64,000 nt of DNA, from positions 558,001 through 622,000 of the forward strand of contig NZ_JADKRW010000002.1 in the NCBI RefSeq assembly GCF_015350995.1, read 5' to 3'. Below, piece by piece: positions 2,889 to 56,046 of this stretch; position 1 is the stretch's first letter, and each line of letters opens with the position of its first letter. Source of the stretch: Curtobacterium sp. VKM Ac-1393 (GTDB taxonomy: Bacteria > Actinomycetota > Actinomycetes > Actinomycetales > Microbacteriaceae). The position numbers and the translations under genes were made by a program. The notes under the pieces are model-generated. The model had not been told where the DNA came from. It saw only the letters and a program-made list of their open reading frames with translations, and searched no databases.

Positions 2889-3205
2889 GCACGGTGCGAG
2901 GTTCCTCGGACGGTGCAGTCTTCGCGAGTCACTGCACCGTGCGAGGTTCTCCGACTGGTGCTGCGGCCGCGGCACGGTGCGAGCCTCTGGCGCCGCACCG
3001 TGCTGCCAACCTCGCACGCGGTGGGCGACCTCGCACGGTGCGCAGACGTCCCCGAGCCGGCGTCGCACCGTGCGACGGGACGAACGCGGCGGGCGTGCGC
3101 CGGGCCTCCCGTCAGCACCGTGCGAGGTCGCAGACATCGTGCGAGCCTTTGGCGCCGCACCGAGCCGTCAGCGCCGCATCGAGTCAGGAACCTCGCACCG
3201 TGCGC
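2889..3205. repeat. Intergenic array of GCACSGTGCGAGGTT units around a hairpin
   Basis: This 320-bp gap between convergent genes holds about nine copies, on both strands, of a unit with palindromic core GCACSGTGC followed by GAGGTT: starts near 2889, 2934, 2972, 3007(-), 3028(-), 3062, 3116, 3137 and 3189(-). In the middle sits a degenerate copy of the hairpin found elsewhere in the window: GACGGGA at 3074-3080 pairs with TCCCGTC at 3107-3113. No gene is visible in the gap. Confidence 0.8.
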
Positions 3206-6854: not shown

Positions 6855-7162
6855 CGGAACGGTCACGACTCGCGGTCGGGACGGCGCCGACTGGTCAGGG
6901 ACCGTCGGCGCGGGAGCCGCGGAGCGACGGTCTGCGACCGCTCACGTGGCGCAGGACGACGTGTCGTGACCGGTCGGCGTGGTGAACGCGACCGCCTGGA
7001 GGCCCGGCGCGGGTCCCGGGGACCGGTGCCGGGCCTCCAAACGGTCACGAATCACCGACGGACTGCGTCGAACGGTCGGGACCAGTCGACGGGGTCCGCG
7101 CGAGGCGACGCGGCGCGACCGCTCGGCGGTCGTGGTGCGACGTGTCATGACCGGTCGGCCGG
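6855..7162. repeat. Intergenic direct-repeat / hairpin / direct-repeat element
   Basis: The 378-bp proB-proA gap has no gene. A hairpin with perfect 11-bp arms (ggaggcccggc 6998-7008, gccgggcctcc 7028-7038) is flanked by two diverged direct repeats of about 120 bp (6855-6980 and 7038-7162). Both begin with AACGGTCACGA, share GCGACCGCTC in the middle, and end with CGACGTGTCRTGACCGGTC. The same layout with different flanking repeats is seen near 36.0 and 43.5 kb. Confidence 0.8.
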
Positions 7163-25264: not shown

Positions 25265-25310
25265 CGGCTCCGATGCTCCGTCGCGTTCGCGGGGTGGACG
25301 CGACGGGCGT

Positions 25311-25354
25311 CGGACGGGAGGCGCGGGGCGGGCCCGCACCGCGCCTCCCGTCCG
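25311..25354. repeat. Dispersed hairpin, best-preserved copy
   Basis: Perfect 16-bp arms: cggacgggaggcgcgg (25311-25326) and ccgcgcctcccgtccg (25339-25354), with a loop containing GGGCCC. It is the longest-armed copy of the hairpin seen at several other intergenic places. Flanking direct repeats are not obvious at this locus. Confidence 0.85.
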
Positions 25355-25425
25355 TCACACACGACGGTCCAGGGCACGCGACGCGCGCGGGCGACGCAGA
25401 CTCGCCTCTGTCGGTGGTCAGGGAC

Positions 25426-25431
25426 TAAACT
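25426..25431 (+). promoter_or_regulatory. Possible -10 box of the helicase gene
   Basis: TAAACT is a good -10. If used, the helicase mRNA would have a leader of about 330 nt. No clear -35. Confidence 0.4.
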
Positions 25432-25437
25432 GAGCGC

Positions 25438-25764: not shown

Positions 25765-27891
25765 TTGGCTCGATCAGGCACCCGGCGAGCAGCCGGCGGG
25801 ACGCGGACCGCGTCACGTCGGACGAGGCCGCTGGACAACGACGGCGTGATCCCCGTCCTCGCCCGCGCGGTGCGCGAGGTCGAGGCGGCGGCGCAGCGCG
25901 GACCGCTCAAGGCGACGAACCGGACGAAGTTCCAGGCCGTCGCACTGCTCATGCGCGAAGAACGCGCACGGGTGAAGGGCGACACGGAGCTCACCGACTC
26001 GCAGCGCGCCGAGCAGCTCAAGCGGCTCGACGGCGTCGCGACGATCCTGGCGAAGACCGCAGCGCGCGACACGAGTGTGATCCAGCTGCTGGCCGAAGAG
26101 GTGCAGGTCTCCGAGGCGACCCGCGCCGTCAAGCGCGACATGATGATCGCCGGTGGCATGGAACTGCAGCCGGAGGACCTCGTCATCGCGACCGAGCCTG
26201 CCCCGGTCGCCGAGACCCCGGTGCGCGCGGTCACCCCGCAGGCGGTCGTGCAGCGCCAGCTCGCGAACCCGTTCCTGCCGCCGGACTTCGCCCTCGCGGA
26301 CCAGCCCGTCGCGCACCCGCGTCGCCTGGCGAACTGGGAGCTCTTCGGCCCGCTGTTCAAGTCGTTCGAGTACGGCGCAGGCGGGGGAGCGGCGACGATG
26401 CCGCTGCCCGAGCCCGCGACGCTGCACTCCCGCTCGGGCACCACGCTCATGAAGCACCAGGCCGAACTGGTCGCCGCCGCATCGCAGGGGCACCGCACGT
26501 TCCTGCTCGCCGACGAGCCGGGCCTCGGCAAGACGGCACAGTCGCTGCTCGCCGCCGACGCCGCGAACGCGTTCCCGCTGCTCGTGGTCGTGCCGAACGT
26601 CGTCAAGACGAACTGGGCGCGCGAGGCCGAGCGCTGGGTGCCGAACCACCGCGCCACGGTCATCCACGGCGACGGCAACGACCTCGACGGGTTCGCCGAC
26701 ATCATCATCGTGAACTACGAGATCCTCGACCGGCACGCCGGCTGGCTCGGGAGCTTCGGCTTCAAGGGCATGGTCGTCGACGAGGCGCACTTCATCAAGA
26801 ACAAGGACTCGCAGCGCGCCCGCTTCGTGCTGCAGATCGCCGACCGCATCCGGCAGCGCACCGCGGCACCGCTGCTCATGGCGCTGACGGGCACCCCGCT
26901 GATCAACTCGGTCGAGGACTTCCGGACCATCTGGGAGTACCTCGGCTGGATCGACGACAAGAAGCCCCGCGCGAAGCTCATGAACGAGCTCGAGGAGATC
27001 GGGCTGACCCCGGCCGACCCGGGCTTCTTCGTCGAGGCCCGTCGTGCCGTGATCGACCAGGGCATCGTCCGACGCCGCAAGGTCGACGTCGCCGCGGACA
27101 TCCCGGCCCGCCGGATCGCCGACATCCCCGTCGAGCTCGACGGCGACGAGGGCCGCTCCATCCGCGACGCCGAGCGCGAGCTCACCGCGAAGCTCGTCCG
27201 TCGGTACCACCAGGCGCTCGACGCCCGCACCGGGCAGGACCCGGTCGTCGGCATCGACCACAAGCTCGTGCGGCAGGTCGCGCGCTGGGAACTCGAGGAC
27301 CAGGACTCCTCGTCGACCGGCGAGAACGTGTTCTCGATGGTCCGCCGCATCGGCCGCGCCAAGGCCCAGCTCGCGGCGGACTACGGCGCGCAGCTCGCCT
27401 CGAACGTCGGCAAGGTGGTCTTCTTCGCCAAGCACCTCGACGTGATGGACCAGGCCGAAGAGGTCTTCGCTCGCCGAGGCCTGCGCACCGCCACGATCCG
27501 GGGCGACCAGACGGCCACGCAGCGTACGGCGCAGATCGACTCGTTCGTCAACGACCCCGACGTCGCGGTGATCGTCTGCTCGCTCACCGCGGCCGGCGTG
27601 GGCCTGAACCTGCAGGTGGCGTCCAACGTCGTGCTCGCCGAGCTGTCGTGGACGAGCGCCGAGCAGACCCAGGCGATCGACCGCGTGCACCGCATCGGCC
27701 AGGAAGAGCCCGTCACCGCGTGGCGCATCATCGCCGCGCAGACGATCGACACCAAGATCGCCGAGCTCATCGACTCGAAGGCGTCCCTGGCCGCCCGCGC
27801 GCTCGACGGCTCGGACGAGGAACTGGTCGACTCCGGGGACATCCAGCTCGACGCCATGGCTGCGCTGCTGACCGAGGCGCTCGGGGGCTAG
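25765..27891 (+). CDS. SNF2-type DEAD/DEAH-box helicase
   Basis: Superfamily 2 ATPase that probably translocates on DNA. The TTG at 25765 is preferred because it follows a perfect AGGAGGA ribosome-binding site; it yields a 708-residue protein starting MARSGTRRAAGG. An ATG at 25600 would add 55 residues of low-quality sequence. Motifs: Walker A DEPGLGKTAQS (about 250), DEAH box (about 338), LTGTPLINSVEDF, and motif VI QAIDRVHRIGQ (about 636), which is typical of SNF2 proteins. An N-terminal 200-residue region is unassigned. Role (repair, remodelling or defence) is not shown by context. Confidence 0.85.
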   Translation: MARSGTRRAAGGTRTASRRTRPLDNDGVIPVLARAVREVEAAAQRGPLKATNRTKFQAVALLMREERARVKGDTELTDSQRAEQLKRLDGVATILAKTAARDTSVIQLLAEEVQVSEATRAVKRDMMIAGGMELQPEDLVIATEPAPVAETPVRAVTPQAVVQRQLANPFLPPDFALADQPVAHPRRLANWELFGPLFKSFEYGAGGGAATMPLPEPATLHSRSGTTLMKHQAELVAAASQGHRTFLLADEPGLGKTAQSLLAADAANAFPLLVVVPNVVKTNWAREAERWVPNHRATVIHGDGNDLDGFADIIIVNYEILDRHAGWLGSFGFKGMVVDEAHFIKNKDSQRARFVLQIADRIRQRTAAPLLMALTGTPLINSVEDFRTIWEYLGWIDDKKPRAKLMNELEEIGLTPADPGFFVEARRAVIDQGIVRRRKVDVAADIPARRIADIPVELDGDEGRSIRDAERELTAKLVRRYHQALDARTGQDPVVGIDHKLVRQVARWELEDQDSSSTGENVFSMVRRIGRAKAQLAADYGAQLASNVGKVVFFAKHLDVMDQAEEVFARRGLRTATIRGDQTATQRTAQIDSFVNDPDVAVIVCSLTAAGVGLNLQVASNVVLAELSWTSAEQTQAIDRVHRIGQEEPVTAWRIIAAQTIDTKIAELIDSKASLAARALDGSDEELVDSGDIQLDAMAALLTEALGG

Positions 27892-27911: not shown

Positions 27912-27977
27912 CTCGCACAACCAAAGTCCGTCCGAACCACGCGATCACGTGGTTCGGACGGACTTTGGTTGTGCGAG
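27912..27977. terminator. Perfect 30-bp inverted repeat between convergent genes
   Basis: Arms 27912-27941 and 27948-27977 are perfectly complementary over 30 bp with a 6-nt loop (cgatca). The position between the helicase and mycoredoxin stops suggests a two-way terminator, but no T-tract follows on either strand. The arms contain GTGCGAGGTT-like sequence shared with the array at 2.9-3.2 kb. Confidence 0.7.
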
Positions 27978-31005: not shown

Positions 31006-31032
31006 GGCGCATCGGCGCCGCGCCTCGAGTGT

Positions 31033-31075
31033 GCAGAAGAAGGCGGGTGCCCGTGGGCGACCCGCCTTCTTCTGC
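31033..31075. terminator. Two-way terminator
   Basis: Perfect 16-bp stem (gcagaagaaggcgggt / acccgccttcttctgc) with an 11-nt loop, between the convergent CYTH-CHAD and oligopeptidase genes. Confidence 0.8.
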
Positions 31076-31093
31076 TCACTCAGTGCTCAGTGC

Positions 31094-35860: not shown

Positions 35861-36119
35861 AGACGCCGGTGTCTCCGTCAGACGCCGCCGAACGGGCGAG
35901 ACGCCGCCGAGTCCGGCGGCGCTTTGCAAACACGACGGCGTCTTGCGTCCGCAGTGGGCGCAGTCGACGACGGACGGGAGGCACGGGGCGACGCCGCCAC
36001 GGGCCTCCCGTCCGCCGCGTGGCCGGCCACAAGACGCCGGCGTCTCCGCCGCACGCCCTCACGTCCGCGAGACGCCGCCGAATTCGGCGGCGTCGAACCG
36101 ACACGACGGCGTCTTGCGG
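35861..36119. repeat. Intergenic direct-repeat / hairpin / direct-repeat element
   Basis: The 304-bp gap between convergent genes holds a hairpin with perfect 12-bp arms (cggacgggaggc 35971-35982, gcctcccgtccg 36003-36014), flanked by two similar stretches of about 90 bp (35861-35947 and 36031-36119). Both stretches start with AGACGCCGGYGTCTCCG, continue with GACGCCGCCGA then a TCGGCGGCG half-palindrome, and end with ACGACGGCGTCTTGCG. No gene is visible. Confidence 0.85.
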
Positions 36120-41784: not shown

Positions 41785-43041
41785 GTGGACATCACACTCA
41801 TAGTCGTCCTGGTCATCGCGTTGGCCCTCTTCTTCGACTTCACAAACGGTTTTCACGACACCGCCAACGCGATGGCGACTCCGATCGCGACCGGGGCCAT
41901 GAAGCCCAAGGTCGCGGTGACGGTCGCCGCGGTGCTCAACCTCGTCGGTGCGTTCCTCAGCACCGCGGTGGCGACCTCGATCTCGCACGGCCTCATCAAC
42001 GAGGGCCCCGGCGGCGTCGCGATCTCACCGGAGATGATCTTCGCGGGGCTCATCGGAGCGGTCGTGTGGAACATGATCACGTGGCTCCGGGGGCTGCCCT
42101 CGTCGTCGTCGCACGCGCTGTTCGGCGGGCTCATCGGCGCGGCGATCGTCGGCGCCGGGTTCCAGTCCGTGAACTACGTCGCGCTGCTGACGGTGGTCAT
42201 CATCCCGGCCTTCGCGTCCCCGGTGATCGCGTCGCTCGTGTCGTTCCTGTCGACCCGCATCGCGTACCGGATCACGAAGCGTCCGGTGTTCCCGAACGAG
42301 CGCGGGGGCTTCCGGGTCGGGCAGATCTTCACCTCGTCGATGGTGTCGCTCGCCCACGGCACGAACGACGCGCAGAAGACGATGGGCGTCATCACGCTCA
42401 CCCTGATCGCCTCGGGCGCACAGTCGACGAACCAGGGCGTGCAGTTCTGGGTCGTCGTGGCCTGCGCCCTGGCGATCGCGCTCGGCACCTACACCGGCGG
42501 CTGGCGCATCATCCGCACCCTCGGGTCCGGCATCACCGAGATCCGTGCAACGCAGGGCTTCGCGGCCGAGGCCTCGACCGCCGCGACGATCCTGGCGTCC
42601 AGCCACCTCGGCTTCGCGCTCTCCACCACCCAGGTGTCCTCCGGCTCGATCATCGGTGCCGGGCTCGGTCGCCGCGGTTCGAAGATCCAGTGGTCCACCG
42701 CCGGCAAGATCGTCATCGCGTGGTTCATCACGCTGCCGGCTGCCGCCGCGGTGGGGGCCGTCGCCTCGGGCATCGCCCGTCTCGGCGTCATCGGACTCGT
42801 CATCGACGCGATCGTCGGTGCCGCGGTGATCCTCGGCCTGTACCTCTGGTCGCTCCGGAAGCCGCACGAGGCTGCCTCCGCGATCGAGGTCGACGTCGCC
42901 GCGAACGCTGTGTACACCCGCAAGGAGCTGCGTGACCTGCAGCGGAAGAAGCGTGCCGACGCCGTCGCCGATCGTCGCGCGGAGCTGAGCCGCGAACGCA
43001 CGCTGCGCCGCATGGCCGCACGCAAGGGAGGCCGTCGCTGA
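41785..43041 (+). CDS. pitA: Low-affinity inorganic phosphate transporter
   Basis: Secondary phosphate transporter, 418 residues from GTG 41785 (MDITLIVVLVIALALFFDF). The duplicated Pit signature is clear: GFHDTANAMATPIATG near the N-terminus and SLAHGTNDAQKTMGVI in the middle. About ten membrane segments; the C-terminus is basic and cytoplasmic. An ATG at 41722 would add 21 residues that fit the family poorly. The stop overlaps a tiny 18-codon frame that in turn overlaps the next gene (TGATG at both junctions), so downstream translation is probably coupled. Confidence 0.92.
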   Translation: MDITLIVVLVIALALFFDFTNGFHDTANAMATPIATGAMKPKVAVTVAAVLNLVGAFLSTAVATSISHGLINEGPGGVAISPEMIFAGLIGAVVWNMITWLRGLPSSSSHALFGGLIGAAIVGAGFQSVNYVALLTVVIIPAFASPVIASLVSFLSTRIAYRITKRPVFPNERGGFRVGQIFTSSMVSLAHGTNDAQKTMGVITLTLIASGAQSTNQGVQFWVVVACALAIALGTYTGGWRIIRTLGSGITEIRATQGFAAEASTAATILASSHLGFALSTTQVSSGSIIGAGLGRRGSKIQWSTAGKIVIAWFITLPAAAAVGAVASGIARLGVIGLVIDAIVGAAVILGLYLWSLRKPHEAASAIEVDVAANAVYTRKELRDLQRKKRADAVADRRAELSRERTLRRMAARKGGRR

Positions 43042-43097
43042 TGGGCATCGCGCTTGACGGACGCCGTTTCGCATTCCGCACGGTGGGAGATCGCTGA
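43041..43097 (+). CDS. 18-codon linker frame between pitA and the next gene
   Basis: ATG at 43041 overlaps the pitA stop (TGATG); its own stop (TGA 43095-43097) overlaps the next ATG at 43097 in the same way. Its first codons (MGIA...RRFAF) copy the start of the downstream gene (MGIDWFAF): the segment cgctgatgggcatcg and ttcgcattcc occur in both places. It looks like a partial duplication of the initiation region that now keeps ribosomes on the message. A stable peptide is unlikely. Confidence 0.45.
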   Translation: MGIALDGRRFAFRTVGDR

Positions 43098-43393
43098 TGG
43101 GCATCGACTGGTTCGCATTCCTCACCGTGGCGCTCGTCGCCGTGGTCTCGTCGTGCTTCGTCGTCGCGGTGTACTCGGTCGGCCTCCGCTTCTGGAGCGC
43201 CGCGGACACCCGCGCGGGCAAGTTCACCGTGAAGGAAGACGGAACGATCGGCCCGGCGACCGCCGGGTTCCCGAACCCCGCTGGCGCGACGACCGCGGTG
43301 CGCGGGTTCCGTGCGCTCGCGATCCTTTGCTACGTCATCTGCGCGGCCGTCGTGCTGTACGGCATCTACCTCATCGTCCCGCAGTTCCACTGA
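43097..43393 (+). CDS. Small membrane protein linked to pitA
   Basis: A 98-residue protein of unknown function with two hydrophobic helices (FLTVALVAVVSSCFVVAVYS and ALAILCYVICAAVVLYGIYLIV) and a polar loop between. It directly follows pitA through an overlapping 18-codon frame and is probably made with it. It could be an accessory of the transporter, but nothing in the sequence proves this. Confidence 0.75.
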   Translation: MGIDWFAFLTVALVAVVSSCFVVAVYSVGLRFWSAADTRAGKFTVKEDGTIGPATAGFPNPAGATTAVRGFRALAILCYVICAAVVLYGIYLIVPQFH

Positions 43394-43431
43394 CGCGCGG
43401 CGCGCGGCGCGCGCGTCCTCGCCTCGGCTGT

Positions 43432-43608
43432 GGCGAGCGGGCGAAATGCCGGGGTGCGTGGCGGACGCAGGGCGCGTATTCGCCCGTTCGCGTGCGTGGA
43501 CCGGGAGGCGCGTGGCGGCCTGGCACCGAGCCTCCCGTCCGCCCCGTGGTGAGTGGGCGAAATGCCGGGGTGCGTGGCGGACGGAGGGCGCGTTTTCGCC
43601 CGTTCGCG
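43432..43608. repeat. Intergenic direct-repeat / hairpin / direct-repeat element, clearest copy
   Basis: Two 60-bp direct repeats (43432-43491 and 43549-43608; about four differences, core gggcgaaatgccggggtgcg) flank a hairpin with arms GGGAGGC (43503-43509) and GCCTCCC (43530-43536). Each direct repeat ends in cgcccgttcgcg and contains a gggcgaaa/ttcgccc inverted pair. The gap has no gene. Confidence 0.9.
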
Positions 43609-43667
43609 GACAGAGCCCAGCCCACGACAGCCCGCGCGCGGCTCCGGACCGGCCGGACGGACTGGGT

Positions 43668-43673
43668 TAGCCT
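43668..43673 (+). promoter_or_regulatory. -10 box of aspA
   Basis: TAGCCT ends 6 nt before the GTG at 43680; leaderless. Confidence 0.45.
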
Positions 43674-43679
43674 CGACGT

Positions 43680-45170
43680 GTGACCGGCAACGAAGCAGCA
43701 CAGGCCCCATCTGGGGCGCAGACCCGTACCGAGAGCGACTCGCTGGGGTCGCGGGAGGTCCCACGCGACGCCTACTGGGGGATCAACACCCTGCGGGCGC
43801 TGGAGAACTTCCCGATCACGAGCGTCCCGATCTCGGTGTACCCGGACTTGATCGAGGCCCTCGCCACCGTGAAGCAGGCCGCTGCACGGGCGAACCGTGC
43901 GATCGGGGTGCTCGACGACGAGCGTGCCGACGCCATCGACCGTGCCGCGCAAGAGGTGCGCGACGGGGCGCTCCGCGAGCAGTTCGTCGTCGACATCGTG
44001 CAGGGCGGCGCCGGCACGAGCACGAACATGAACACGAACGAGGTCCTGGCGAACCGTGCGCTCGAGATGCTCGGGCGGGAGCGCGGCGACTACGCCTACC
44101 TGCACCCGATCGACCACGTGAACCGCAGCCAGTCGACGAACGACACGTACCCGACGAGCATCAAGATCGCGATGATCTTCTCCGCCCGACGGCTCATCGA
44201 GCAGCTCGAACAGCTCTCCGCCGCGTTCGCCGAGCGGGGGCGTGCCTTCGCCGACGTGTTGAAGGTCGGTCGGACGCAGCTGCAGGACGCCGTGCCGATG
44301 ACGCTCGGGCAGGAGTTCACCGGGTTCTCGCACACGATCCAGGAGGACGCCGACCTGCTCCGCAAGGTCCTGCCGCTGTTGGCCGAGATGAACCTCGGCG
44401 CGACGGCGATAGGCACCGGGATCACCGCGGACCCGCTGTACCGCGACGAGGTCCGCCGCCAGCTGCAGGAGGCCAGTGGCATCGACGTCGTCACGGCACC
44501 CGACCTGATCGAGGCGACGAGCGACGCCGGCGCCTTCATGACCCTGTCCGGCACGGTGAAGCGCAGTGCCGCGAAGCTGTCGAAGATCTGCAACGACCTG
44601 CGGCTCCTCGCGTCCGGGCCGCAGGCTGGGCTCGGTGAGATCACCCTGCCGGCCCGTCAGGCCGGGTCGTCGATCATGCCCGGCAAGGTGAACCCGGTGA
44701 TCCCCGAGGTCGTGAACCAGATCGCGTTCGCAGTCGTCGGGGCGGACACCACGGTGACGATGGCGGCCGAGGGCGGTCAGCTCCAGCTCAACGCCTTCGA
44801 GCCGATCATCGCGCACTCGATCCTGCAGTCGCTGCAGTGGATGGCACGGGGCTGTGCGACGTTGCGCGAACACTGCGTGACGGGCATCGAGGCGAACGAG
44901 GCGAAGCTCGCGGCGCAGGTCGACACGAACGTCGGCGTGGTCACAGCCCTGACCCCGTACATCGGTTATGCGGCGGCGGCGTCGATCGCACACACGGCAC
45001 TGACCACGTCGACGCCGATCTCGACGCTCGTCGTCGCGGCCGGTCTGATGGACGAGGACCAGGTGCAGCGCGTGCTGAGCCCGGCGCGGTTGTCCGGCAT
45101 CGAGCTCGCGACCGGTGCGATCCCTGTGGTCACCGAGGAGATGCTGGACCGAGCGGCACGCGAGCGCTGA
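43680..45170 (+). CDS. aspA: Aspartate ammonia-lyase
   Basis: Reversible deamination of aspartate to fumarate. The 496-residue protein belongs to the aspartase/fumarase superfamily; the signature loop is GSSIMPGKVNPVIPE (about 328-342). The segments DAYWGINTLRALENFPI, GAGTSTNMNTNEVLANRALE and NRSQSTNDTYPTS fit aspartase. Class II fumarase is the alternative; the N-terminal YWGINTLRALENF pattern (fumarase has YGAQTQRSLENF) favours aspartase. GTG start with a -10 box 6 nt upstream. Single-gene unit. Confidence 0.9.
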   Translation: MTGNEAAQAPSGAQTRTESDSLGSREVPRDAYWGINTLRALENFPITSVPISVYPDLIEALATVKQAAARANRAIGVLDDERADAIDRAAQEVRDGALREQFVVDIVQGGAGTSTNMNTNEVLANRALEMLGRERGDYAYLHPIDHVNRSQSTNDTYPTSIKIAMIFSARRLIEQLEQLSAAFAERGRAFADVLKVGRTQLQDAVPMTLGQEFTGFSHTIQEDADLLRKVLPLLAEMNLGATAIGTGITADPLYRDEVRRQLQEASGIDVVTAPDLIEATSDAGAFMTLSGTVKRSAAKLSKICNDLRLLASGPQAGLGEITLPARQAGSSIMPGKVNPVIPEVVNQIAFAVVGADTTVTMAAEGGQLQLNAFEPIIAHSILQSLQWMARGCATLREHCVTGIEANEAKLAAQVDTNVGVVTALTPYIGYAAAASIAHTALTTSTPISTLVVAAGLMDEDQVQRVLSPARLSGIELATGAIPVVTEEMLDRAARER

Positions 45171-45218
45171 CGCGCAAGCAGCGCACGACGCGCACGACGC
45201 GCAAGCAGCGCAAGCCCG

Positions 45219-46304
45219 TCAGGGCATCGGCGCTTCACCGACGCGCACCTGCTGGGCAACGTCCCGCAGGTGTTCCTGCGCCGGGCTCGGCTCGGCGTCC
45301 TCGTCGGCGGCGACCTGCGCGGCGGCGTGCCGGACGTTCCGCGCCGCGGCGATGTCGGCGTCCCGCCACCGTGCCAGCGTGAAGTTGCGCGTGACGTCGC
45401 GCAGCGGCAGTCGGATCGACTCGTCGGCCTCGATGCCGGCCAGCAGCTGCCGCATCCGGATCACCTCGGAGTCGAGCTCACCGCCGACGACGAGCACGAA
45501 GTTCGAGATGTACAGGTAGACGAGCAGCAGGATCCCGCCACCGAGCCACCCGTACGCGCGGTTGCCGCCGCCGATCGTCTCGACGTAGATCGCGAAGCCG
45601 AGGGTCGCGATCGCCCAGGTCACGATGGCGAACGCTGCACCGGCGGACACCCACCGCAGCTGCGGCGTCTTCACGTTCGGGGTCGCGTAGTACAGCACGG
45701 CGACCATCACCACGAGGTCGGCCGCGAGCACGGGCCACTTCACGATGTTCCAGACGTCGTCGATCCACGGGGCCCAGCCGAACGAGGCGACGATCGCCGC
45801 CGAGATCGTCGGGGTGCCGAGCAGGATGACGATCGCGATCGCGCCGCCCGCCATCACGAGCAGGGTGACGAGGAGCATCATGCTGCGGAACTTCCAGATC
45901 CGCCGGCCCTCCTCGACCTCGTACGAGGTGTTCATCGCCCGCCCGAAGGCCGTCGCGTACCCGGACAGCGACCAGAGCGTCAGCACGACGCCGATCGCGA
46001 ACCCGAGCCAGGGGTTGTCGAGGGTCAGCAGTTGGCGCAGCGGGGTCTCGAGGTGCTCCGCCGTCTCCGGCCGCAGGATGAACCCGAGCACGCCGATGAT
46101 GTCCGAAAGGCTGTCGCCCTCGCGGTCGACGATCGACAGTGCGGACACCACGGTCAACGCGGTCGGGAACACCGTCAGCAGCGCGAAGAACGTCAGCGAC
46201 GCGGCCGCGTCGACGACGCGGTGCCGGATCACCGAGTGGTAGGTGCGCCGGACGACGGCGCGGACTCCCGTCCGCTGGAGATCGCGCGATGCGCTGTCCG
46301 GCAT
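45219..46304 (-). CDS. YihY/BrkB-family membrane protein
   Basis: A 361-residue inner-membrane protein of the YihY (formerly RNase BN) / BrkB family. Six hydrophobic segments are seen, beginning AASLTFFALLTVFPTALTVV (the family motif AxxxxxxxxLxxFP) and including WLGFAIGVVLTLWSLSGY, MMLLVTLLVMAGGAIAIVIL and GGGILLLVYLYISNFVLVVG. The C-terminal tail is charged and cytoplasmic. Molecular function remains unproven. Start MPDSASRDLQ at 46304, with a minus-strand TACCGT -10 7 nt upstream. Confidence 0.9.
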   Translation of the reverse strand: MPDSASRDLQRTGVRAVVRRTYHSVIRHRVVDAAASLTFFALLTVFPTALTVVSALSIVDREGDSLSDIIGVLGFILRPETAEHLETPLRQLLTLDNPWLGFAIGVVLTLWSLSGYATAFGRAMNTSYEVEEGRRIWKFRSMMLLVTLLVMAGGAIAIVILLGTPTISAAIVASFGWAPWIDDVWNIVKWPVLAADLVVMVAVLYYATPNVKTPQLRWVSAGAAFAIVTWAIATLGFAIYVETIGGGNRAYGWLGGGILLLVYLYISNFVLVVGGELDSEVIRMRQLLAGIEADESIRLPLRDVTRNFTLARWRDADIAAARNVRHAAAQVAADEDAEPSPAQEHLRDVAQQVRVGEAPMP

Positions 46305-46311
46305 GCGTTGT

Positions 46312-46317
46312 ACGGTA
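46312..46317 (-). promoter_or_regulatory. -10 box of the YihY gene
   Basis: TACCGT on the minus strand, 7 nt before the ATG at 46304; leaderless. Confidence 0.4.
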
Positions 46318-46360
46318 CCCGACACGTGACGTCGCGCCGTGCTGTGGTCGTGCTGCGGTG

Positions 46361-46520
46361 CGGACGGGAGGCCCGTGGCGGGCCCGCCCGGCGCCTCCCG
46401 TCCGCCGCTTGGTCGCGTCGACCCCGTCAGAGCGACACAAGCCCGCTCCGGTCCGCCGTCCGTCTCGCGAAAGCGACAGACGTCTGCGGAAGGTTCGCGC
46501 GCATCTGTCGCTTTGGCGGG
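46361..46520. repeat. Dispersed hairpin with one-sided AAAGCGACAGA repeats
   Basis: Arms cggacgggaggc (46361-46372) and gcctcccgtccg (46393-46404) form the shared hairpin. To the right are locus-specific units gagcgacacaag, gaaagcgacagacgtctg and the inverted atctgtcgctttg (about 46431-46515). No matching repeat is visible on the left, where the YihY promoter begins. Confidence 0.75.
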
Positions 46521-46542
46521 AGGGCCGGCGGCCGCTCGTCGG

Positions 46543-47862
46543 TCAGTTGGCGTGCGGGTGCAGGGCGTCGTAGCGGCGGAAGGAGGGGACCAGGCGGAGC
46601 AGCAGCGCAACGAGCGCCACGATGAGCACGCCGCCGATGATCGGCGGGTACGCGATGCCGGCCGCGACCACCAGGCCCGCGTACAGGTCACCGAGCCGTG
46701 GGCCGCCGGTCACCACGACGATGAAGATGCCCTGCAGCCGGCCGCGCATACCGTCCGGCGACGCCGCCTGCAGGATGGTGTTCCGGAACACCGAGCTGAC
46801 GTTGTCGGCGCCTCCGGCCGCGGCGAGGAACAGCGCTGCGAGGCCGAGCGCCGGCAGGATCCCGACCGAGAACGACTCGCCCGCACGACCACCGAGCACG
46901 TGCGCCAGCGCGATCACCACGCCGAACGCCGCGATCGCGCCGCCGTACGCGGTGATGGCCCAGCCGACCGCCTCGCCCTGCCGGCGGACGTGCCCGAGCG
47001 GACCGGAGAACACGCTCGACAGCAGCGCACCGATCGCGTACGCCGCCGTCAGCGTGCCGACCGTGATCGATCCGCCACCGATCACCAGGGCGCCGATCGC
47101 GGGGAACAGCACGCGGGGCTGGCCGAACGTCATCGCGACGATGTCGAGCACGAACGTCATCGTGATGTTCTTCGACTTCCGCAGGAACCGGGCGCCTTCG
47201 ACGAGCGAGCCGAGCCCGGGCCGGAGCGCTCCGTGGTCGGCGGCCATCCGCGGCAGCGTGAAGACCCCGAGGAACGCGAACGTGAACAGGACGACGTCGA
47301 TCGTGTACGTCGGCGCGAACCCGACGGTCGCGATGAGCACACCGGCGACCGCCGGGCCGACGGTGACCTGGAACCCGGACGCGATGCCGCCCAGGGCGCT
47401 CGCCGCGGGGAGCATGTCGGTGCCGACCAGCCGGGGCACGATCGCCGAGCGCGAGGCGTTGCTGACGGTCGCGGCGACGGCGTTCACGGTGGCCAGGACG
47501 TAGAGCAGCAGGACGCTGTGCAGTCCGAGCCAGGCATGGGTCGCGATCAGGGCGACCGCGACCCAGGCGATGATCGACGAGACGAGTGCGACCAGGCGCC
47601 GGTCGAAGGCGTCCGCGAGCATCCCGCCGTACAGGCCGGCGACGATCATCGGCAGCAGCGCGATGACGCCGACCAGGGCCACGGCGAAGGTCGAGTGCGT
47701 GATCTCGTACACCTCGAGCCCGACCGCCACGTTGGTCATCTGGGTGCCGATGCCGGCGATCGCCGTGCCCGCCCAGAGGCGTGCGAACGCGGGGGAGCGG
47801 CGGAGCGGGGTGAGGTCGGCGAGCAGGCGGCGGCGCGGCGGTGCGGGAGTGGGTCGTGTCAC
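46543..47862 (-). CDS. MFS transporter
   Basis: Major facilitator superfamily exporter, 439 residues from GTG 47862. It has about twelve membrane segments in two halves. The loop after helix 2, GGMLADAFDRRLVALVS, is the MFS motif A region (GxLaDrxgrrxxl-like), and FARLWAGTAIAGIGTQMTNVAVGLEVY at the N-terminus resembles the MFS group of multidrug/enterobactin exporters. Substrate unknown. Divergent from the FKBP gene. Confidence 0.88.
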   Translation of the reverse strand: MTRPTPAPPRRRLLADLTPLRRSPAFARLWAGTAIAGIGTQMTNVAVGLEVYEITHSTFAVALVGVIALLPMIVAGLYGGMLADAFDRRLVALVSSIIAWVAVALIATHAWLGLHSVLLLYVLATVNAVAATVSNASRSAIVPRLVGTDMLPAASALGGIASGFQVTVGPAVAGVLIATVGFAPTYTIDVVLFTFAFLGVFTLPRMAADHGALRPGLGSLVEGARFLRKSKNITMTFVLDIVAMTFGQPRVLFPAIGALVIGGGSITVGTLTAAYAIGALLSSVFSGPLGHVRRQGEAVGWAITAYGGAIAAFGVVIALAHVLGGRAGESFSVGILPALGLAALFLAAAGGADNVSSVFRNTILQAASPDGMRGRLQGIFIVVVTGGPRLGDLYAGLVVAAGIAYPPIIGGVLIVALVALLLRLVPSFRRYDALHPHAN

Positions 47863-47931
47863 GGTGGAACCATTCTGCGGCCTGGGTGGCCGGTGCGCCT
47901 GCCGTTGCCGCGCTCTGGTTGACTGGAACGC

Positions 47932-48303
47932 ATGACTGACCTCAACAGCAAGCCCGAGTTCGACGCTCCCGAGGGCCCCGCCCCCACCGAACTCGTCATC
48001 ACCGACATCGTCGAGGGTGACGGCGACGTCGCGAGCGCCGGGTCGACCGTCAAGGTCCACTACGCCGGCGTCGAGTACGAGACCGGCGAGGAGTTCGACA
48101 GCTCGTGGAACCGCGGCGAGCCCATCGACTTCCCGCTCGCGGCGCTCGTGCGCGGCTGGCAGGAGGGCATCCCCGGCATGGAGGTCGGCGGTCGCCGCAA
48201 GCTCGTCGTCCCGCCGGAGCTCGCCTACGGCCCCGCCGGCGGCGGCCACTTCCTGTCCGGCAAGACCCTGATCTTCGTGATCGACCTGCTCGGAGTGCGC
48301 TGA
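47932..48303 (+). CDS. FKBP-type peptidyl-prolyl isomerase
   Basis: Speeds cis-trans isomerisation at proline bonds; 123 residues, cytoplasmic (no signal peptide). FKBP active-site residues are visible: VKVHYAGV, FDSSWNRGEPIDFPL, VRGWQEGIPGMEVGGRRKLVVPPELAYG and TLIFVIDLLGV. ATG start 47932 with TTGACT 7 nt upstream, which may serve as a -10 for a leaderless message. The stop overlaps the next start (TGATG), coupling it to the aldo/keto reductase. Confidence 0.95.
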   Translation: MTDLNSKPEFDAPEGPAPTELVITDIVEGDGDVASAGSTVKVHYAGVEYETGEEFDSSWNRGEPIDFPLAALVRGWQEGIPGMEVGGRRKLVVPPELAYGPAGGGHFLSGKTLIFVIDLLGVR

Positions 48304-49139
48304 TGCAGGTCGGCGCGCCGACCATCGAACTCAACGACGGCCACCGGTTCCCGGAACTCGGCCTCGGCACCTACGGCCTGAACGGCGACGAGGGCGCGGC
48401 CGCCGTCGGCACCGCGATCAGCAGCGGCTACCGGCTGCTGGACACGGCGCTGAACTACGGCAACGAGGACGCGGTCGGCCGAGCCGTCCGCGAGTCCGAC
48501 GTGGCCCGCGAGGACCTCGTCGTCACCTCGAAGCTCCCCGGCCGGCACCACGGCTACGACGAGGCGCACCGCTCGATCGACGAGACCCTGGGCAACCTCG
48601 GACTCGACCACGTCGACCTGTACCTGATCCACTGGCCGAACCCGTCGGTGGACAAGTTCGTCGACACCTGGAAGGCGTTCGTCGACCTCCGCGACAGCGG
48701 CAAGGTCCGTTCGATCGGCGTCTCGAACTTCACCCCGGAGCACCTGCGCCGCATCATCGACGCGACCGGTGTCGCCCCGGCCGTGAACCAGGTCGAGCTG
48801 CACCCGTACTTCCCCCAGGCAGAACTGCGGAAGGTGCACCAGGAGCTCGGCATCGTGACCGAGAGCTGGAGCCCGCTCGCGGTCCGGTCGGAGCTCCTCA
48901 CCGAGCAGCCGATCACCGACGCCGCAGCTGCCCACGGTGTGACCCCGGGCCAGGTCGTGCTGCGGTGGCACGTCCAGCTCGGCGCGGTGCCGGTGCCGAA
49001 GTCGGCCGACGCCACGCGGCAGCGCGAGAACCTCGACGTGTTCGGCTTCGAGCTCACCGACGCCGAGGTGCAGGCGATCTCCGGCCTCGAGCGCGGCCGG
49101 CTCTGGGACGCGGACCCGGACACGCACGAAGAGATGTGA
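48303..49139 (+). CDS. Aldo/keto reductase
   Basis: NADPH-dependent carbonyl reductase, 278 residues. The catalytic tetrad is visible: Asp and Tyr in LLDTALNYGNE, Lys in VVTSKLPG and His in YLIHWPNP. The C-terminal cofactor segment VPVPKSADATRQRENLDVFGF is typical. Closest to the 2,5-diketo-D-gluconate reductase (AKR5) group; the natural substrate is unknown. It overlaps the FKBP stop (TGATG). Confidence 0.92.
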   Translation: MQVGAPTIELNDGHRFPELGLGTYGLNGDEGAAAVGTAISSGYRLLDTALNYGNEDAVGRAVRESDVAREDLVVTSKLPGRHHGYDEAHRSIDETLGNLGLDHVDLYLIHWPNPSVDKFVDTWKAFVDLRDSGKVRSIGVSNFTPEHLRRIIDATGVAPAVNQVELHPYFPQAELRKVHQELGIVTESWSPLAVRSELLTEQPITDAAAAHGVTPGQVVLRWHVQLGAVPVPKSADATRQRENLDVFGFELTDAEVQAISGLERGRLWDADPDTHEEM

Positions 49140-49170
49140 CGCACGGCGCGGCGACGTGCCGCGCAGCACG

Positions 49171-49232
49171 ACCCTTCGGGAACGGCGGGGCTCCAGCGGG
49201 CAGTACACTGGATTCCCCTCTTCCCGAAGGGT
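49171..49232 (+). promoter_or_regulatory. helD/helR promoter inside an inverted repeat
   Basis: A TACACT -10 box at 49204-49209 lies between perfect 11-bp inverted arms ACCCTTCGGGA (49171-49181) and TCCCGAAGGGT (49222-49232). The right arm also supplies the purine-rich sequence before the GTG start. No -35 consensus; no copy of the rifamycin-associated element was recognised. Confidence 0.5.
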
Positions 49233-49237
49233 TGTGT

Positions 49238-51481
49238 GTGTCAGAACCGACCGAGATCGACCGCGAGCGCGGCTACGTCGACGGGCTCTTCCGCCGTCTG
49301 GACGAGTTGACCGCCGAGGCCGAGCAGCGTCTCGCCGAGACCCGTCGTCAGACGGTCGGCGGGAACCACCAGAGCCGCAGCGAGCGTGACGCGTACGCCC
49401 GGCTCTACGAGGACACCGTGGCGACGCTCGAGCGCGTCGGGGACCGGCTGGTCTTCGGCCGGCTCGAGGTCTCCGAGCCCGACACCGCCGAGGACACCTT
49501 CCGCTACATCGGCCGCGTGGGGCTCCGCGACGCCGACCACCGACCGCTGCTGCTCGACTGGCGTGTGCCGGGAGCCAGCGCGTTCTACCAGGCCACCGCG
49601 GCGCACCCGATGGGCATGCGGTCACGTCGTCACCTGTCGCTCGAGGGCCGGCGGGTCGTCGGTGTCGAGGACGAGGTCTTCGACGCGTCGCTGTACGACG
49701 ACGACCGCACCCACCTGCAGGGCGAGGGGGCACTGCTGGCCGCGGTGACCGCCGAGCGCACCGGCCGGATGACCGACATCGTCGCGACCATCCAGGGCGA
49801 GCAGGACCGGATCATCCGCTCACCCCTCGAGGGTGTCCTCATCGTGCAGGGCGGCCCCGGCACCGGCAAGACCGCCGTGGCGCTGCACCGTGCCGCGTAC
49901 CTGCTGTACTCGTATCGCGAGCGGCTGCGCGGCTCCGGGGTCCTCATGGTCGGTCCGTCGTCGGCGTTCCTGACCTACATCGAGCAGGTGCTGCCGTCGC
50001 TCGGCGAGACCGGGGTCGTGATGGCCTCGCTCGGCTCGCTGTACCCGGGTGTGCACGCGACGACGCACGACCAGCGCGACGTCGCCGCCGTGAAGGGCTC
50101 GGCGCAGACGGCGTCGCTGCTGCGTCGCGCCGTCCGGTCGCGGCAGGTGGTGCCGACCGAGTCGGTCGTCCTCGACGTCGAGGGCGAGCGGCTCGTCGTG
50201 ACGCCGCAGCTCGTGGCTGACGCCATGAAGCGAGCGCAGGACCGCGGCAAGCCCCACAACGCCGCGCGCGTCACGTTCAACAAGATCGCCCTCGACTCGA
50301 TGACCCGCTTGCTCGCCGAACAGCTCCGCGAGCGCGGCACGACGGTGGACGAGGCCGACGAGAAGGTCCTGCGCGAGGACATCCGGAGCTCGTACGACGC
50401 CCGGGTACTGCTCAACACCGCTTGGTTGCCGCTGCCGCCGGAGAAGTTCCTCGAGGACCTGTACGCCCGCCCGAACTGGCTCGCCTCGCTGACCCCGGAC
50501 TGGACCCCGGAGCGCCGCGCACTGCTGCAGCGTGCCCGCGGGGCTGCCTGGACGGTCGAGGACGTCCCCCTGCTCGACGAGGCCGCCGAACTGCTCGGCC
50601 CGTTCGACCCGACCGGCGGTGCCGCCAAGCGCGCGGCGAAGGCCAGCCGGAACCGTGACATCGAGAACGCCCGTCAGGCCATCGAGAACATGGGCGTCGA
50701 GGGGATCGTCACCGCCGAACAGGTCGCCGGTTCGTTCGCCGAGGGCGGGGACCCCCGCTCGACGGCCGAGCGAGCCGCCGACGACCGCGAGTGGACCTAC
50801 GGACACATCGTGGTCGACGAGGCGCAGGAGCTCTCGCCGATGCAGTGGCGGGTGCTCGCCCGCCGCAACCCGCTGCGGTCCTTCACGATCGTGGGCGACA
50901 TGGCCCAGGGCTCCTCGCCGGGAGCCGCCCGTACCTGGGACGACGTGCTCGGTGCGCTGGCCCGCCGGCGTCGGGGCCGTGCGCCCCTCGTGCCCCTCGA
51001 CCACCGCATCGCGCAGCTCACCGTGAACTACCGCACCCCGCGGTCGATCGTCGAGGCCGCCGGGGTGTTCGCCGACCGTGCCGGCCTGACCGTCACCCGG
51101 AACGAGGCCGTGCGCGACGGCGACCCCGTCGAGCGCGTCCGTGTCGCCCGTGCCGACCTGCTCGACACGGTCGTGTCCGTCGCCGACGCCGAACGGTCGC
51201 GGATCGGTGCCGGCACCATCGGCGTGATCGTCCCCGAGTCCGAGGTGGACGCCGTCCGGCAGCGCCTCGCCCGCACCGAGGCCGACGTGCGCGGGCTCAC
51301 CTCGCCGCACGCCGGATCGCTCACGGTGCTGACCGGGGCGGACGCCAAGGGCCTCGAGTTCGACGGCGTGCTGCTCGTCGACCCCGACCGGGTCGGTGCC
51401 GACGCGGCACGAGCGGCCGCTGCGGTCTACGTCGCGATGACCCGTCCGACGCGCCGCCTGACGGTCATCGACGTCGCCTGA
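49238..51481 (+). CDS. HelD/HelR-like RNA polymerase recycling ATPase
   Basis: UvrD-like superfamily 1 protein of 747 residues. HelD proteins pull stalled RNA polymerase off DNA; the actinobacterial HelR branch also protects it from rifamycins. An N-terminal coiled-coil arm (EIDRERGYVDGLFRRLDELTAEAEQRLAETR) precedes the family-specific YIGRVGLRD..LLLDWRVPGASAFYQAT. Motifs: Walker A GGPGTGKTAVALHR (about 205-218), VDEAQELSPMQWR, VNYRTPRSI and the C-terminal GADAKGLEFDGVLLVDP, VAMTRPTRRL. GTG start. Transcribed alone, convergent with the emfourin gene. Confidence 0.9.
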   Translation: MSEPTEIDRERGYVDGLFRRLDELTAEAEQRLAETRRQTVGGNHQSRSERDAYARLYEDTVATLERVGDRLVFGRLEVSEPDTAEDTFRYIGRVGLRDADHRPLLLDWRVPGASAFYQATAAHPMGMRSRRHLSLEGRRVVGVEDEVFDASLYDDDRTHLQGEGALLAAVTAERTGRMTDIVATIQGEQDRIIRSPLEGVLIVQGGPGTGKTAVALHRAAYLLYSYRERLRGSGVLMVGPSSAFLTYIEQVLPSLGETGVVMASLGSLYPGVHATTHDQRDVAAVKGSAQTASLLRRAVRSRQVVPTESVVLDVEGERLVVTPQLVADAMKRAQDRGKPHNAARVTFNKIALDSMTRLLAEQLRERGTTVDEADEKVLREDIRSSYDARVLLNTAWLPLPPEKFLEDLYARPNWLASLTPDWTPERRALLQRARGAAWTVEDVPLLDEAAELLGPFDPTGGAAKRAAKASRNRDIENARQAIENMGVEGIVTAEQVAGSFAEGGDPRSTAERAADDREWTYGHIVVDEAQELSPMQWRVLARRNPLRSFTIVGDMAQGSSPGAARTWDDVLGALARRRRGRAPLVPLDHRIAQLTVNYRTPRSIVEAAGVFADRAGLTVTRNEAVRDGDPVERVRVARADLLDTVVSVADAERSRIGAGTIGVIVPESEVDAVRQRLARTEADVRGLTSPHAGSLTVLTGADAKGLEFDGVLLVDPDRVGADAARAAAAVYVAMTRPTRRLTVIDVA

Positions 51482-51506
51482 GGCGCGGGCCGCGCCACTC
51501 GGTGGC

Positions 51507-51535
51507 GGCCGGGAGGCCCGTGGCGGGCCCGCCAC
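51507..51535. repeat. Truncated copy of the dispersed hairpin
   Basis: gggaggcccgtggcgggccc (from 51511) is identical to the left arm and loop of the copy at 46368, but the right arm is absent. It lies between convergent genes. Confidence 0.6.
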
Positions 51536-51547
51536 ACCCCCGCCGTC

Positions 51548-51826
51548 TCAGGACGGGTCGCCTGCAGAGCGGACGCGCGCGACCAGGTCGGCCCACGCAC
51601 CGTCGAGGCGGCGGCCCGGGATCGTCACGGTCGTGCGCTCGACGGTGATCGTCCACGTGAAGTCGTCGGGGACCGGCGGTCCGGCGTGCACCGCCGCCGC
51701 GGGGGACCGGGGCAGCGCGTCGACCACTTCGGACCACGCGGTGGGGTCGTCGGTCGTGTCGGTGTCGACCCGCCAGCGCCGCGTGGTGCCGGCGAAGCCT
51801 CCGGTGCGGCGGACGTCGATGTGCAT
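51548..51826 (-). CDS. Emfourin-like protealysin inhibitor
   Basis: Small cytoplasmic protein of 92 residues. The sequence MHIDVRRTGGFAGTTRRWRVDT at the start and DDFTWTITVERTTVTIPG later match the emfourin pattern; emfourins are tight-binding inhibitors of protealysin-like M4 proteases. The gene lies 37 bp downstream of an M4 protease on the same strand, the typical arrangement, so both are probably co-transcribed and the inhibitor guards against premature activity. Start at 51826; a longer version from 51859 lacks family resemblance. Confidence 0.8.
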   Translation of the reverse strand: MHIDVRRTGGFAGTTRRWRVDTDTTDDPTAWSEVVDALPRSPAAAVHAGPPVPDDFTWTITVERTTVTIPGRRLDGAWADLVARVRSAGDPS

Positions 51827-51863
51827 GCCCCGACCGTACGCCGGTGCGCGGCGGACCACCGGC

Positions 51864-52943
51864 TCAGCCCAGGACGCCCACCGTCCGCCAGGCGTCCTGC
51901 ACCGCGGTGTGCTCTGCGGAACCGGCGCCGAACCGGGACCCAGCGGCCGTGATCGTCACGGCGGCGAACCCCGCGAAGTCGATCGACGCGGTGACGGCGT
52001 CCGAGGTCAGGGCGTCCCACCACACGGCACCGGCGCCCTGCCAGGCGTGCCCGCCGATGCTCGTCGCCGCCAGGAAGAACGCGTGGTTCGGGATGCCGGA
52101 GTTGGTGTGCACCCCGCCGGCGTCGTCGGTCGTCACCACGAAGTCGGCCATGGTCGCCGGCTGCGGGTCCTTGCCGAGCACCGGGTCGTCGTAGGCGGTG
52201 CCCGGGGCCCGCATCGAGCGCAGGGCGTCGCCGTGCACCGCATCGGTGAAGAGGCCCTCGCCGATGAGCCAGCTCGCCTGGTCGGCGGTCTGCCCGGCGG
52301 CGTACTGGGCGACGAGCGAGCCGAAGACGTCGCTGATCGACTCGTTGAGCGCCCCGGACTGCCCCTGGTACGTCAGGTCGGCGGTGTACTGCGTGACGCC
52401 GTGCGCCAGTTCGTGCCCGATGACGTCGAGCGCGATCGTGAAGCGCCGGAAGACCTCGTCGTCGCCGTCGCCGAACACCATCCGGCTGCCGTCCCAGTAG
52501 GCGTTGTCGTAGTCCTGCCCGAAGTGGACGGTGGCGTCGAGGGGGAGCCCGGCGCCGTCGATCGACACCCGGCCGAACACGTCGAGCCAGAACGCGTGGG
52601 TCGCACCGAGGCCCGCGTACGCCTCGTCGACGGCCGCGTCACCGGTGTCCGCGTCTCCTTCGCGACGGACCACGGCGCCGGGCAGCGTCGTCGTGCCGCG
52701 TGCATCGGCGATCGTGCGCTGCGGCGATCGGTCGACGGTGCCGGTGCCGGTGCCGGTGCCGGTGCCGGTGCTGCTGAGGCTGCGCGGCGCGACCAGGTGC
52801 CGGTGCTTCGGGGCCTGCACGGCCTCGAGCGACGCCAGTGCGGTGCGGGCCGCCGATGCCGCCCGGGGGAACTCGGCCGCCTGGGCCACGGCGTGGAGCA
52901 GGTAGGGCGGGACGACGGAGCGCCGGCTGTCGGTCGGGGTCAT
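51864..52943 (-). CDS. Protealysin-like M4 metalloprotease
   Basis: Zinc metalloprotease of the thermolysin family, 359 residues. No signal peptide; the short propeptide begins MTPTDSRRSVVPPYLLHAVA, and the PPYLL segment is typical of protealysin-like precursors. The zinc site is HELAHG (about 174-179) with the third ligand Glu in ALNESISDVFG, and the catalytic-region GGVHTNSGIPNHAFF is present. A 6-bp repeat (52737-52770) encodes GTGTGTGTGT near the propeptide/mature junction. Followed by an emfourin-like inhibitor gene. Confidence 0.92.
   Translation of the reverse strand: MTPTDSRRSVVPPYLLHAVAQAAEFPRAASAARTALASLEAVQAPKHRHLVAPRSLSSTGTGTGTGTGTVDRSPQRTIADARGTTTLPGAVVRREGDADTGDAAVDEAYAGLGATHAFWLDVFGRVSIDGAGLPLDATVHFGQDYDNAYWDGSRMVFGDGDDEVFRRFTIALDVIGHELAHGVTQYTADLTYQGQSGALNESISDVFGSLVAQYAAGQTADQASWLIGEGLFTDAVHGDALRSMRAPGTAYDDPVLGKDPQPATMADFVVTTDDAGGVHTNSGIPNHAFFLAATSIGGHAWQGAGAVWWDALTSDAVTASIDFAGFAAVTITAAGSRFGAGSAEHTAVQDAWRTVGVLG
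52737..52770 (-). repeat. Hexanucleotide repeat in the M4 protease gene
   Basis: Five to six tandem ggtgcc units encode a Gly-Thr stretch. Copy changes keep the frame and would only change linker length between propeptide and mature enzyme. Confidence 0.85.
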
Positions 52944-55783: not shown

Positions 55784-55872
55784 CCCCGTGTCCCGTCCCG
55801 GAAGACGCCGTCGTCGTGCTGAGACGCCGCCGGATCTGGAGGCGTCTCGCTGACTCGGGGGCGTCGGGTGAA

Positions 55873-55965
55873 CACGCCGGCGTCTTCTCAGCACGCCGGC
55901 GTCCTGCGAGCACGCCGGCGTCTTGTGAGCACGCCGGCGTCTTGTGAGCACGCCGGCGTCTTGCG
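55873..55965. repeat. Five-copy 19-bp tandem array
   Basis: Units start exactly every 19 bp (55873, 55892, 55911, 55930, 55949): CACGCCGGCGTCTTGTGAG with small changes, last copy incomplete. Core CGCCGGCG is palindromic. Just upstream (55803-55846) are related AGACGCCG units shared with the 36-kb element. There are no spacers, so it is not CRISPR. The rest of the 289-bp gap (55784-56072) shows no gene. Confidence 0.9.
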
Positions 55966-56046
55966 GACGGGCTCTTAGGTGCGCCACAGGGTTCGTGGGG
56001 GTGGAGTCCGGCCGGCTGGCGGCTGGCTCATCGGTGGGCTCGGGAA

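Follow-up and report, generated by a model that had tools for sequence, protein, structure and literature searches.

Genus-wide palindromes behind the stop codons of Curtobacterium as likely U-poor bidirectional terminators

Curtobacterium genomes carry a family of palindromes of 40–48 bp, here called H, that lie just behind stop codons and are likely to act as bidirectional intrinsic terminators without a strong U-tract; the repeats beside the copy before aspA are two members of a second palindrome family, probably multiplied by local tandem duplication. The family was traced from a stretch of 64,000 nt (the window) of Curtobacterium sp. VKM Ac-1393, the source genome (contig NZ_JADKRW010000002.1, positions 558,001 to 622,000). 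At the level of sequence, its repetition throughout the genus, its position at gene 3′ ends, its scarcity in divergent gaps and the covariation of its inner stem are plain, as are the replacement of arms or families at orthologous gaps and the change in copy number of flank-plus-hairpin (X-H) blocks between near relatives. As a mechanism, the nascent RNA would fold into the H hairpin and release RNA polymerase, both directions of an H would be used where genes converge, and duplication would proceed via slippage or unequal crossing-over between repeats; terminators would have been turned into repeat families.

Whether GC-rich actinobacteria can terminate at hairpins that lack a U-tract is disputed, and a review of the subject (PMC12288462) cites one paper whose title holds the U-tract to be required and another whose title holds it to be dispensable. 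A single U-poor palindrome that occurs in 59 of 60 genomes, with natural variants in arm, centre and orientation, would represent thousands of ready-made test constructs, and convergent gaps would provide built-in, two-way controls for termination tests. It appears, moreover, that repeat families can develop out of terminators, which carries the warning that intergenic direct repeats of this kind are not necessarily mobile elements.

The aspA gap and other palindromes of the window

In the gap before aspA, a GGGAGGC-N20-GCCTCCC hairpin stands between two A-type direct repeats of 63 nt each (Table 1), much as an earlier note on this DNA had described it. That note had also proposed that the hairpin belongs to a family of scattered copies whose centre is constant, and this is borne out by exact copies at 25316, 35976 and 46366, together with a variant at 7.0 kb, a degenerate copy at 3.1 kb and half a copy at 51.5 kb. 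With the copy at 43503, the window holds four exact GGGAGGC..GCCTCCC pairs; of 100 sequences generated from it with a first-order Markov model, 94 contained no such pair. The A repeats are palindromic themselves, and relatives of A were found in 15 of 21 genomes of the genus. Since the two copies beside this H are 94% identical to each other and the best other full-length A of the source genome reaches 80% or less, they are local duplicates. The RNA fold predicted for the aspA-gap H is -31.2 kcal/mol, and Rfam covariance models gave no match at E values up to 1 over positions 42500-52500 of the window.

Table 1. Features of the window discussed in the text, with their coordinates
Feature	Position	Strand	Remarks
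Degenerate H copy, 3.1 kb	3071..3113		right arm alone intact; surrounded by palindromes of C type (motif TGCGAGGT; 2904-3145)
Left 21-nt flanking repeat of 7.0-kb H	6958..6978	+	
Long H variant, 7.0 kb	6990..7046		GCCTGGAGGC arms
Right 21-nt flanking repeat of 7.0-kb H	7139..7159	+	1 difference from left repeat
H copy, 25.3 kb	25310..25355		tandem gap
S-type palindrome	31027..31081		GAGTGTGCAGAAGA...TCTTCTGCTCACTC; convergent gap
Left B element of 36.0-kb H	35896..35947		
H copy, 36.0 kb	35970..36015		convergent gap
Right B element of 36.0-kb H	36067..36118		9/52 differences from left B
Small gene upstream of element	43097..43393	+	no Pfam or NCBIfam match at 1e-5
Left A element	43430..43492		arms GCGAGCGGGCGAAAT / ATTCGCCCGTTCGC form an inverted repeat; the earlier note's left direct repeat
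H element	43496..43543		palindrome of 40-48 bp, imperfect, with GGGAGGC/GCCTCCC arms (43503-43536); lies after the 43097-43393 gene and before aspA as a predicted terminator
Right A element	43546..43608		4 differences from left A
aspA-type aspartate ammonia-lyase gene	43680..45170	+	downstream of element; NCBIfam NF008909, 695 bits (cut-off 510); Pfam Lyase_1
H copy, 46.4 kb	46360..46405		tandem gap, two minus-strand genes
D-type palindrome	46453..46531		AAGCGACAGA...TCTGTCGCTT; gap shared with 46.4-kb H
Half H copy, 51.5 kb	51505..51547		left half kept, right arm decayed

Other repeats of the window include a tandem array at 55841-55973, whose 19-bp unit (ACGCCGGCGTCTTGTGAGC) is the motif of the 36.0-kb B palindromes and which is mostly missing from the orthologous gap of two relatives (G005 and G011). 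There is also a near-perfect palindrome with 33-bp arms in a convergent gap (27912-27977), where relatives hold a palindrome of the same size and much changed sequence, as well as a 12-bp tandem repeat (GGTGGGCAGCCT) at 1953-2060, in the gap after the window's first gene.

Genomic position and distribution of H

Genes were called with a codon-usage script of our own, no annotation being used, and gaps of at least 40 bp were considered in 1.264 Mb of the source genome, the stretches of which are unbiased with respect to H. There, H in the form GGAGGC-N20-GCCTCC was found in 22 of the 119 convergent gaps and 28 of the 384 tandem gaps, but in none of the 179 divergent ones (Fisher 5e-10 for convergent versus divergent gaps; p 8e-4 for enrichment in convergent over tandem gaps). 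When the centre is allowed to vary (N10-40), the same sequence yields 29 of 119 convergent, 36 of 384 tandem and 1 of 179 divergent gaps. Such copies were found in 1 of 124 divergent gaps of relatives and in 4 of 103 of the named set (the 80 listed of 115 stretches). The named loci, like the stretches of a second genome (G018), had been picked for holding H, so that their gap fractions are not free of bias. Over all stretches, 122 H copies comprise 55 convergent, 62 tandem, 1 divergent, 3 coding and 1 edge copy, two copies of the source genome being placed in predicted coding sequence. The start of GGAGGC lies no more than 60 nt from a stop codon in 38 of the 62 tandem and in 48 of the 55 convergent copies, the nearer stop being taken for the latter.

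Hairpins of any sequence number 266 in the 1.264 Mb and occur in 89 of 119 convergent, 113 of 384 tandem and 15 of 179 divergent gaps; the first 864 kb contains 171, as opposed to a mean of 6.6 in shuffled gaps. H accounts for 60 of the 266, the B, C, P and S palindromes (assigned by motif) for 52, none of them divergent, and D for 11, one of them divergent. To be counted, a hairpin had to have seven exact seed pairs and reach a score of 11, which weaker elements fail to do, the aspA-gap H and the A copies among them; the A family does not enter the tally by motif because its copies fall mostly below this threshold.

Since H is located behind stop codons and almost never between two gene starts, a two-way stop of transcription is predicted. 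A family of structured terminators, which the earlier note had put forward as one possibility, is the best-supported function, and the enrichment in gaps, whose lack that note had named as telling against its reading, is evident in the counts above. Position, two-way symmetry, scarcity in divergent gaps and exchange with unrelated hairpins fit a U-poor, I-shaped terminator, as H provides a hairpin of predicted stability shortly behind the stop codon and avoids divergent (promoter-only) gaps. A U-tract directly behind the stem, the mark of canonical L-shaped intrinsic terminators, was not found behind H in tandem gaps, where the first two bases are T in 38% and 26% of cases, a slight enrichment, and the next two in 16% and 18%.

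The nearest rival to a terminator is a 3′ stabiliser of mRNA or an exonuclease stop, with H and its sister palindromes acting like the REP sequences of E. coli and termination taking place downstream by Rho. An RNA-stabilising 3′ hairpin predicts an almost identical genomic pattern, with the same location behind stop codons, strong predicted hairpins (a mean of -40.6 kcal/mol over 60 H copies, the first ones of 225) and little U-tract, and Rho has been reported as the dominant terminator in mycobacteria (PMC12288462). Such a role is nevertheless unlikely, as the enrichment in convergent over tandem gaps is more readily reconciled with a stop that works in both directions than with a stabiliser that works in one, and the better palindromes of convergent gaps (described below) point in the same direction.

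Strict copies of H number 136 in the source genome (reversed control, 0). The 40-bp form was found in 59 of 60 Curtobacterium genomes, each of the 59 carrying 6-176 strict copies (0 in controls); a search of 147 Microbacteriaceae genomes that represent 84 other genera gave none. With a looser 32-bp core, three Curtobacterium genomes gave 174-206 copies, and 8 of 127 others had 1-4. A search with a variable centre retrieved 65 copies from one genome of another genus (G093, genus g35), with GGAGGCnCGG arms and a length above 32 bp in most of those listed; 9 of the 97 remaining genomes of other genera had 1-2 copies, G093 being the sole one outside the genus with more than 2 in the sample. Five G093 copies in its first 140 kb are situated behind stop codons in three cases and in predicted coding sequence in two (with a borrowed gene model). 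Among the matches listed from the named collection, 79 of 80 stretches bear the title Curtobacterium, the remaining one coming from a metagenome bin of Cellulosimicrobium (3.2-kb contig). As far as sampled, strict H thus appears to be confined to one genus, within which two genomes with 0 and 6 strict copies (G040 and G051) may represent the base of the H expansion.

A phage or plasmid origin was rejected, since a 40-mer query matched 0 of 50,697 phage records and 2 of 72,556 plasmid records, one from Microbacterium sediminis and one from Curtobacterium citreum; the H-like 40-mer on the M. sediminis plasmid (NZ_CP038257.1:112643-112682) is 92.5% identical. Homogenisation of H across the genome was likewise set aside, as the probability of identical cores is 1.5% and 5.6% within genomes and 1.3% between them, so that a clear recent burst is evident in the second genome (G018) only. 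In a genome of another genus (G103), 17 of 38 intergenic hairpins belong to repeat families of other sequence, for example GGGCGTATCGAGATCCACC and CCGCGAGATGCCACTTGTG, and palindromic repeat families may therefore be common in Microbacteriaceae.

The constancy of the arms also brings to mind the uptake signals of Neisseria, which serve as terminators as well, and one short constant sequence does form both arms of many terminator hairpins here, with GACGGGAGGC occurring unpaired 42 times as compared with about 12 expected in all. However, uptake signals number ~1000 or more per genome (PMC1852404), the 146 half-sites in 1.26 Mb include 104 in pairs and leave too few unpaired, and several unrelated hairpin families share the same role. 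The idea was accordingly dropped as extremely improbable.

Pairing, flanking repeats and orthologous gaps

Counts of H that require GGAGGC...GCCTCC hold those six positions constant by construction, and the test of covariation concerned the inner stem. At half-site pairs 11, 14, 15, 16, 18, 19 and 20, 65-80% of 115 distinct copies are matched (one edge copy was dropped and identical copies were collapsed, from 121 to 115), versus 38-61% for shuffled halves, and the observed pairing at these seven variable pairs was reached in 0 of 1000 shuffles. Positions 12, 13 and 17, which are outside the search pattern, are near-invariant (0.99 C, 0.98 G and 0.97 C). Pairing that is kept where letters vary, beside letters that hardly vary at all, argues that the latter are maintained on other grounds; the constant outer arms and the few fixed inner bases call for more than pairing. 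It is conceivable, if rather doubtful, that one ancestral terminator hairpin was copied genome-wide and that its arms owe their constant letters to a dedicated factor that reads sequence (a partner of RNA polymerase that binds RNA or DNA), such that U-less termination in the genus would be addressed by sequence and stacks of rival hairpin families would expand and contract around it through tandem duplication.

Of 20 pairs, a mean of 1.27 are mismatched in convergent copies versus 3.42 in tandem copies (p 2e-6), and among tandem copies the values are 2.26 near a stop codon versus 5.25 far from one; a second set, consisting of loci chosen for a perfect outer arm, gave a weak difference in the same comparison (1.20 convergent versus 1.69 tandem, p 0.09). 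G.U pairs provide a further signal, as a G.U pair holds in the RNA of one strand and corresponds to A.C on the other. When the tandem-gap hairpins of every sequence are taken together, their sense strand has 57 G.U versus 24 A.C pairs (p 3e-4), with 50:53 in convergent gaps; the 80 named loci gave 14:14, and pooling with the first set gave 71:38 (p 0.002). For H alone, the counts are 8:2 in the arms only and 26:23 in the full register. These ratios argue moderately for selection at the RNA level in the hairpin class and give no sign of it in H itself. A strand-oriented polarity of H half-sites was rejected by eye, as they run both ways.

The lack of a G.U excess for H in the full register would suit a site read in DNA (a cruciform, or a palindrome to which a dimeric protein binds) that marks where transcription units end or acts as a block there, as would near-invariant letters in the arms and at positions 12, 13 and 17 beside freely covarying pairs. 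A bound palindrome, however, need not keep seven variable pairs complementary. Moreover, H follows stop codons and is nearly missing from divergent gaps, and hairpins of unrelated sequence replace it at orthologous gaps, which together make a DNA-level site quite improbable.

The repeats that flank H in the window differ by locus, being of C type at 3.1 kb, 21 nt long at 7.0 kb, of B type (52 nt, 9 differences) at 36.0 kb and of A type at 43.5 kb. No flanking direct repeat was found at 25.3 and 46.4 kb, where the best local scores are 8.5 and 6.5, versus 53 at 43.5 kb and 38.5 at 36.0 kb; the locus-specific, paired flanks that the earlier note had ascribed to each copy are therefore real at the former four loci and missing at the latter two. 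Copies were testable if the gap extended 40 bp or more to either side (84 of 122 were dropped as coding, at an edge or with less than 40 bp on a side), and a direct repeat around H with a score of at least 30 was found in 9 of 38 testable copies, from six gaps, versus 1% of permuted pairs. Direct repeats are thus not part of the H element. The remaining 29 of 38 copies contradict the notion that they are a property of the hairpin family, and the earlier note had itself named their absence at most copies as telling against it. Nor are the flanks unique to one locus, as had been supposed, since they belong to palindrome families (A, B, C, D and S) found elsewhere in the genome and the genus.

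The arrangement in which H is enclosed by two like palindromes (X-H-X) is a minority one, and it is probably accounted for by blocks of flank plus hairpin that are duplicated in tandem and lost again. The 7.0-kb gap of one relative (G032) contains a single hairpin with two flank motifs, and that of another, 95.6% identical (G001), four hairpins set between five motifs; G011 has none, and the source genome is like G032. The suggestion that the hairpin is surrounded by duplicated local DNA survives for tandem block duplication at some loci, and fails as a mechanism tied to each copy.

Stretches of ten relatives, aligned to the window at 82.5-91.2%, contain H in 34 of 50 comparisons at gaps with an H in the source genome, as against 7 of 202 at gaps that lack one there, and a hairpin of any kind was seen in 0 of 89 comparisons of divergent gaps. 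At the aspA gap, H is present in 6 of 10 relatives, and the layouts range from A-H-A in the source genome to S-H (G002), H-C (G013), S only (G005), a stack of S, A and H (G032) and a lone H (G055). Arms may also change in concert, as in the 36.0-kb gap, where ACGGGAGGC...GCCTCCCGT of the source genome is ACTGGAGGC...GCCTCCAGT in G002, and the palindrome family in the 31006-31093 gap differs by species (S types, one unassigned palindrome, a D type). Orthologous gaps thus retain a hairpin while its arms or its whole family switch.

Spread by a transposase, with H and the X palindromes as non-autonomous mobile elements (REPIN or MITE), would account for sharp edges, since similarity between H copies is lost ~8 bp outside GGAGGC, and for a 44-bp D palindrome of G011 that is missing with clean edges from G005, which is 93.7% identical (orthologue of window positions 25265-25845; L283-L286 versus L096). 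It is very unlikely, however, given that H is mostly kept at orthologous gaps and that the differences listed for five close pairs include no clean presence or absence of H only. Furthermore, the Y1 domain of REP-type transposases (PF01797) occurs in 0 of 21 genomes of the genus, the same search matching 5 of 14 control genomes, and a REPIN/RAYT identity of H was rejected on this ground.

Relation to known systems

No paper on H was found in the open-access literature on palindromes of Curtobacterium or Microbacteriaceae and on terminators that form repeat families, and the arm sequence matched only human or unrelated (primer) entries, which does not imply absence from print. To our knowledge, mycobacterial I-shaped terminators have no genus-wide constant arm, the bidirectional terminators of Bacillus cereus have no common repeat sequence, and H has no link to DNA uptake.

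The I-shaped intrinsic terminators of mycobacteria, as a review describes them, consist of a hairpin within ~50 bp behind the stop codon and no strong U-tail (PMC12288462), and H is like them in its near-stop hairpin, its weak U-tail and its actinobacterial host. Whereas that review portrays them as scarce, H is one sequence present more than 100 times per genome, and there are several such families. Neisseria and Pasteurellaceae are reported to form terminators from inverted DNA uptake signals, and ~55% of such Neisseria terminators hold the signal (PMC1852404). In H, too, a genus-wide constant sequence makes up both arms and accounts for a large share of hairpins, but its copies are far fewer than those described there, mostly paired and U-poor, with a compensating variable centre. 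The bidirectional terminators of B. cereus resemble H in stems maintained by paired changes, and are AT-flanked and classical, unlike H, in the account given of them (PMC5381666).

Repeated palindromes at gene 3′ ends that are rare in divergent gaps have been described as REP/BIME, Ype, Efa and Bor (PMC1590033). H shares both traits with these and differs from the families of that paper in its near-perfect 40-bp dyad, strong convergent enrichment, gene-proximal spacing and the absence of a Y1 transposase from 21 genomes. The program RepRanger is reported to separate REPs from terminators by a T-rich tail (PMC12306157), a rule under which H would probably be classed as REP. Repeated palindromes at 3′ ends (PMC1590033) and terminators built from a genus-wide sequence (PMC1852404) are accordingly already known, as far as these sources describe them; the H family is distinct in being a U-poor, nearly perfect palindrome with a covarying centre, in genomes free of a REP-type transposase (21 genomes), and in a strict form that belongs, as far as sampled, to one genus.
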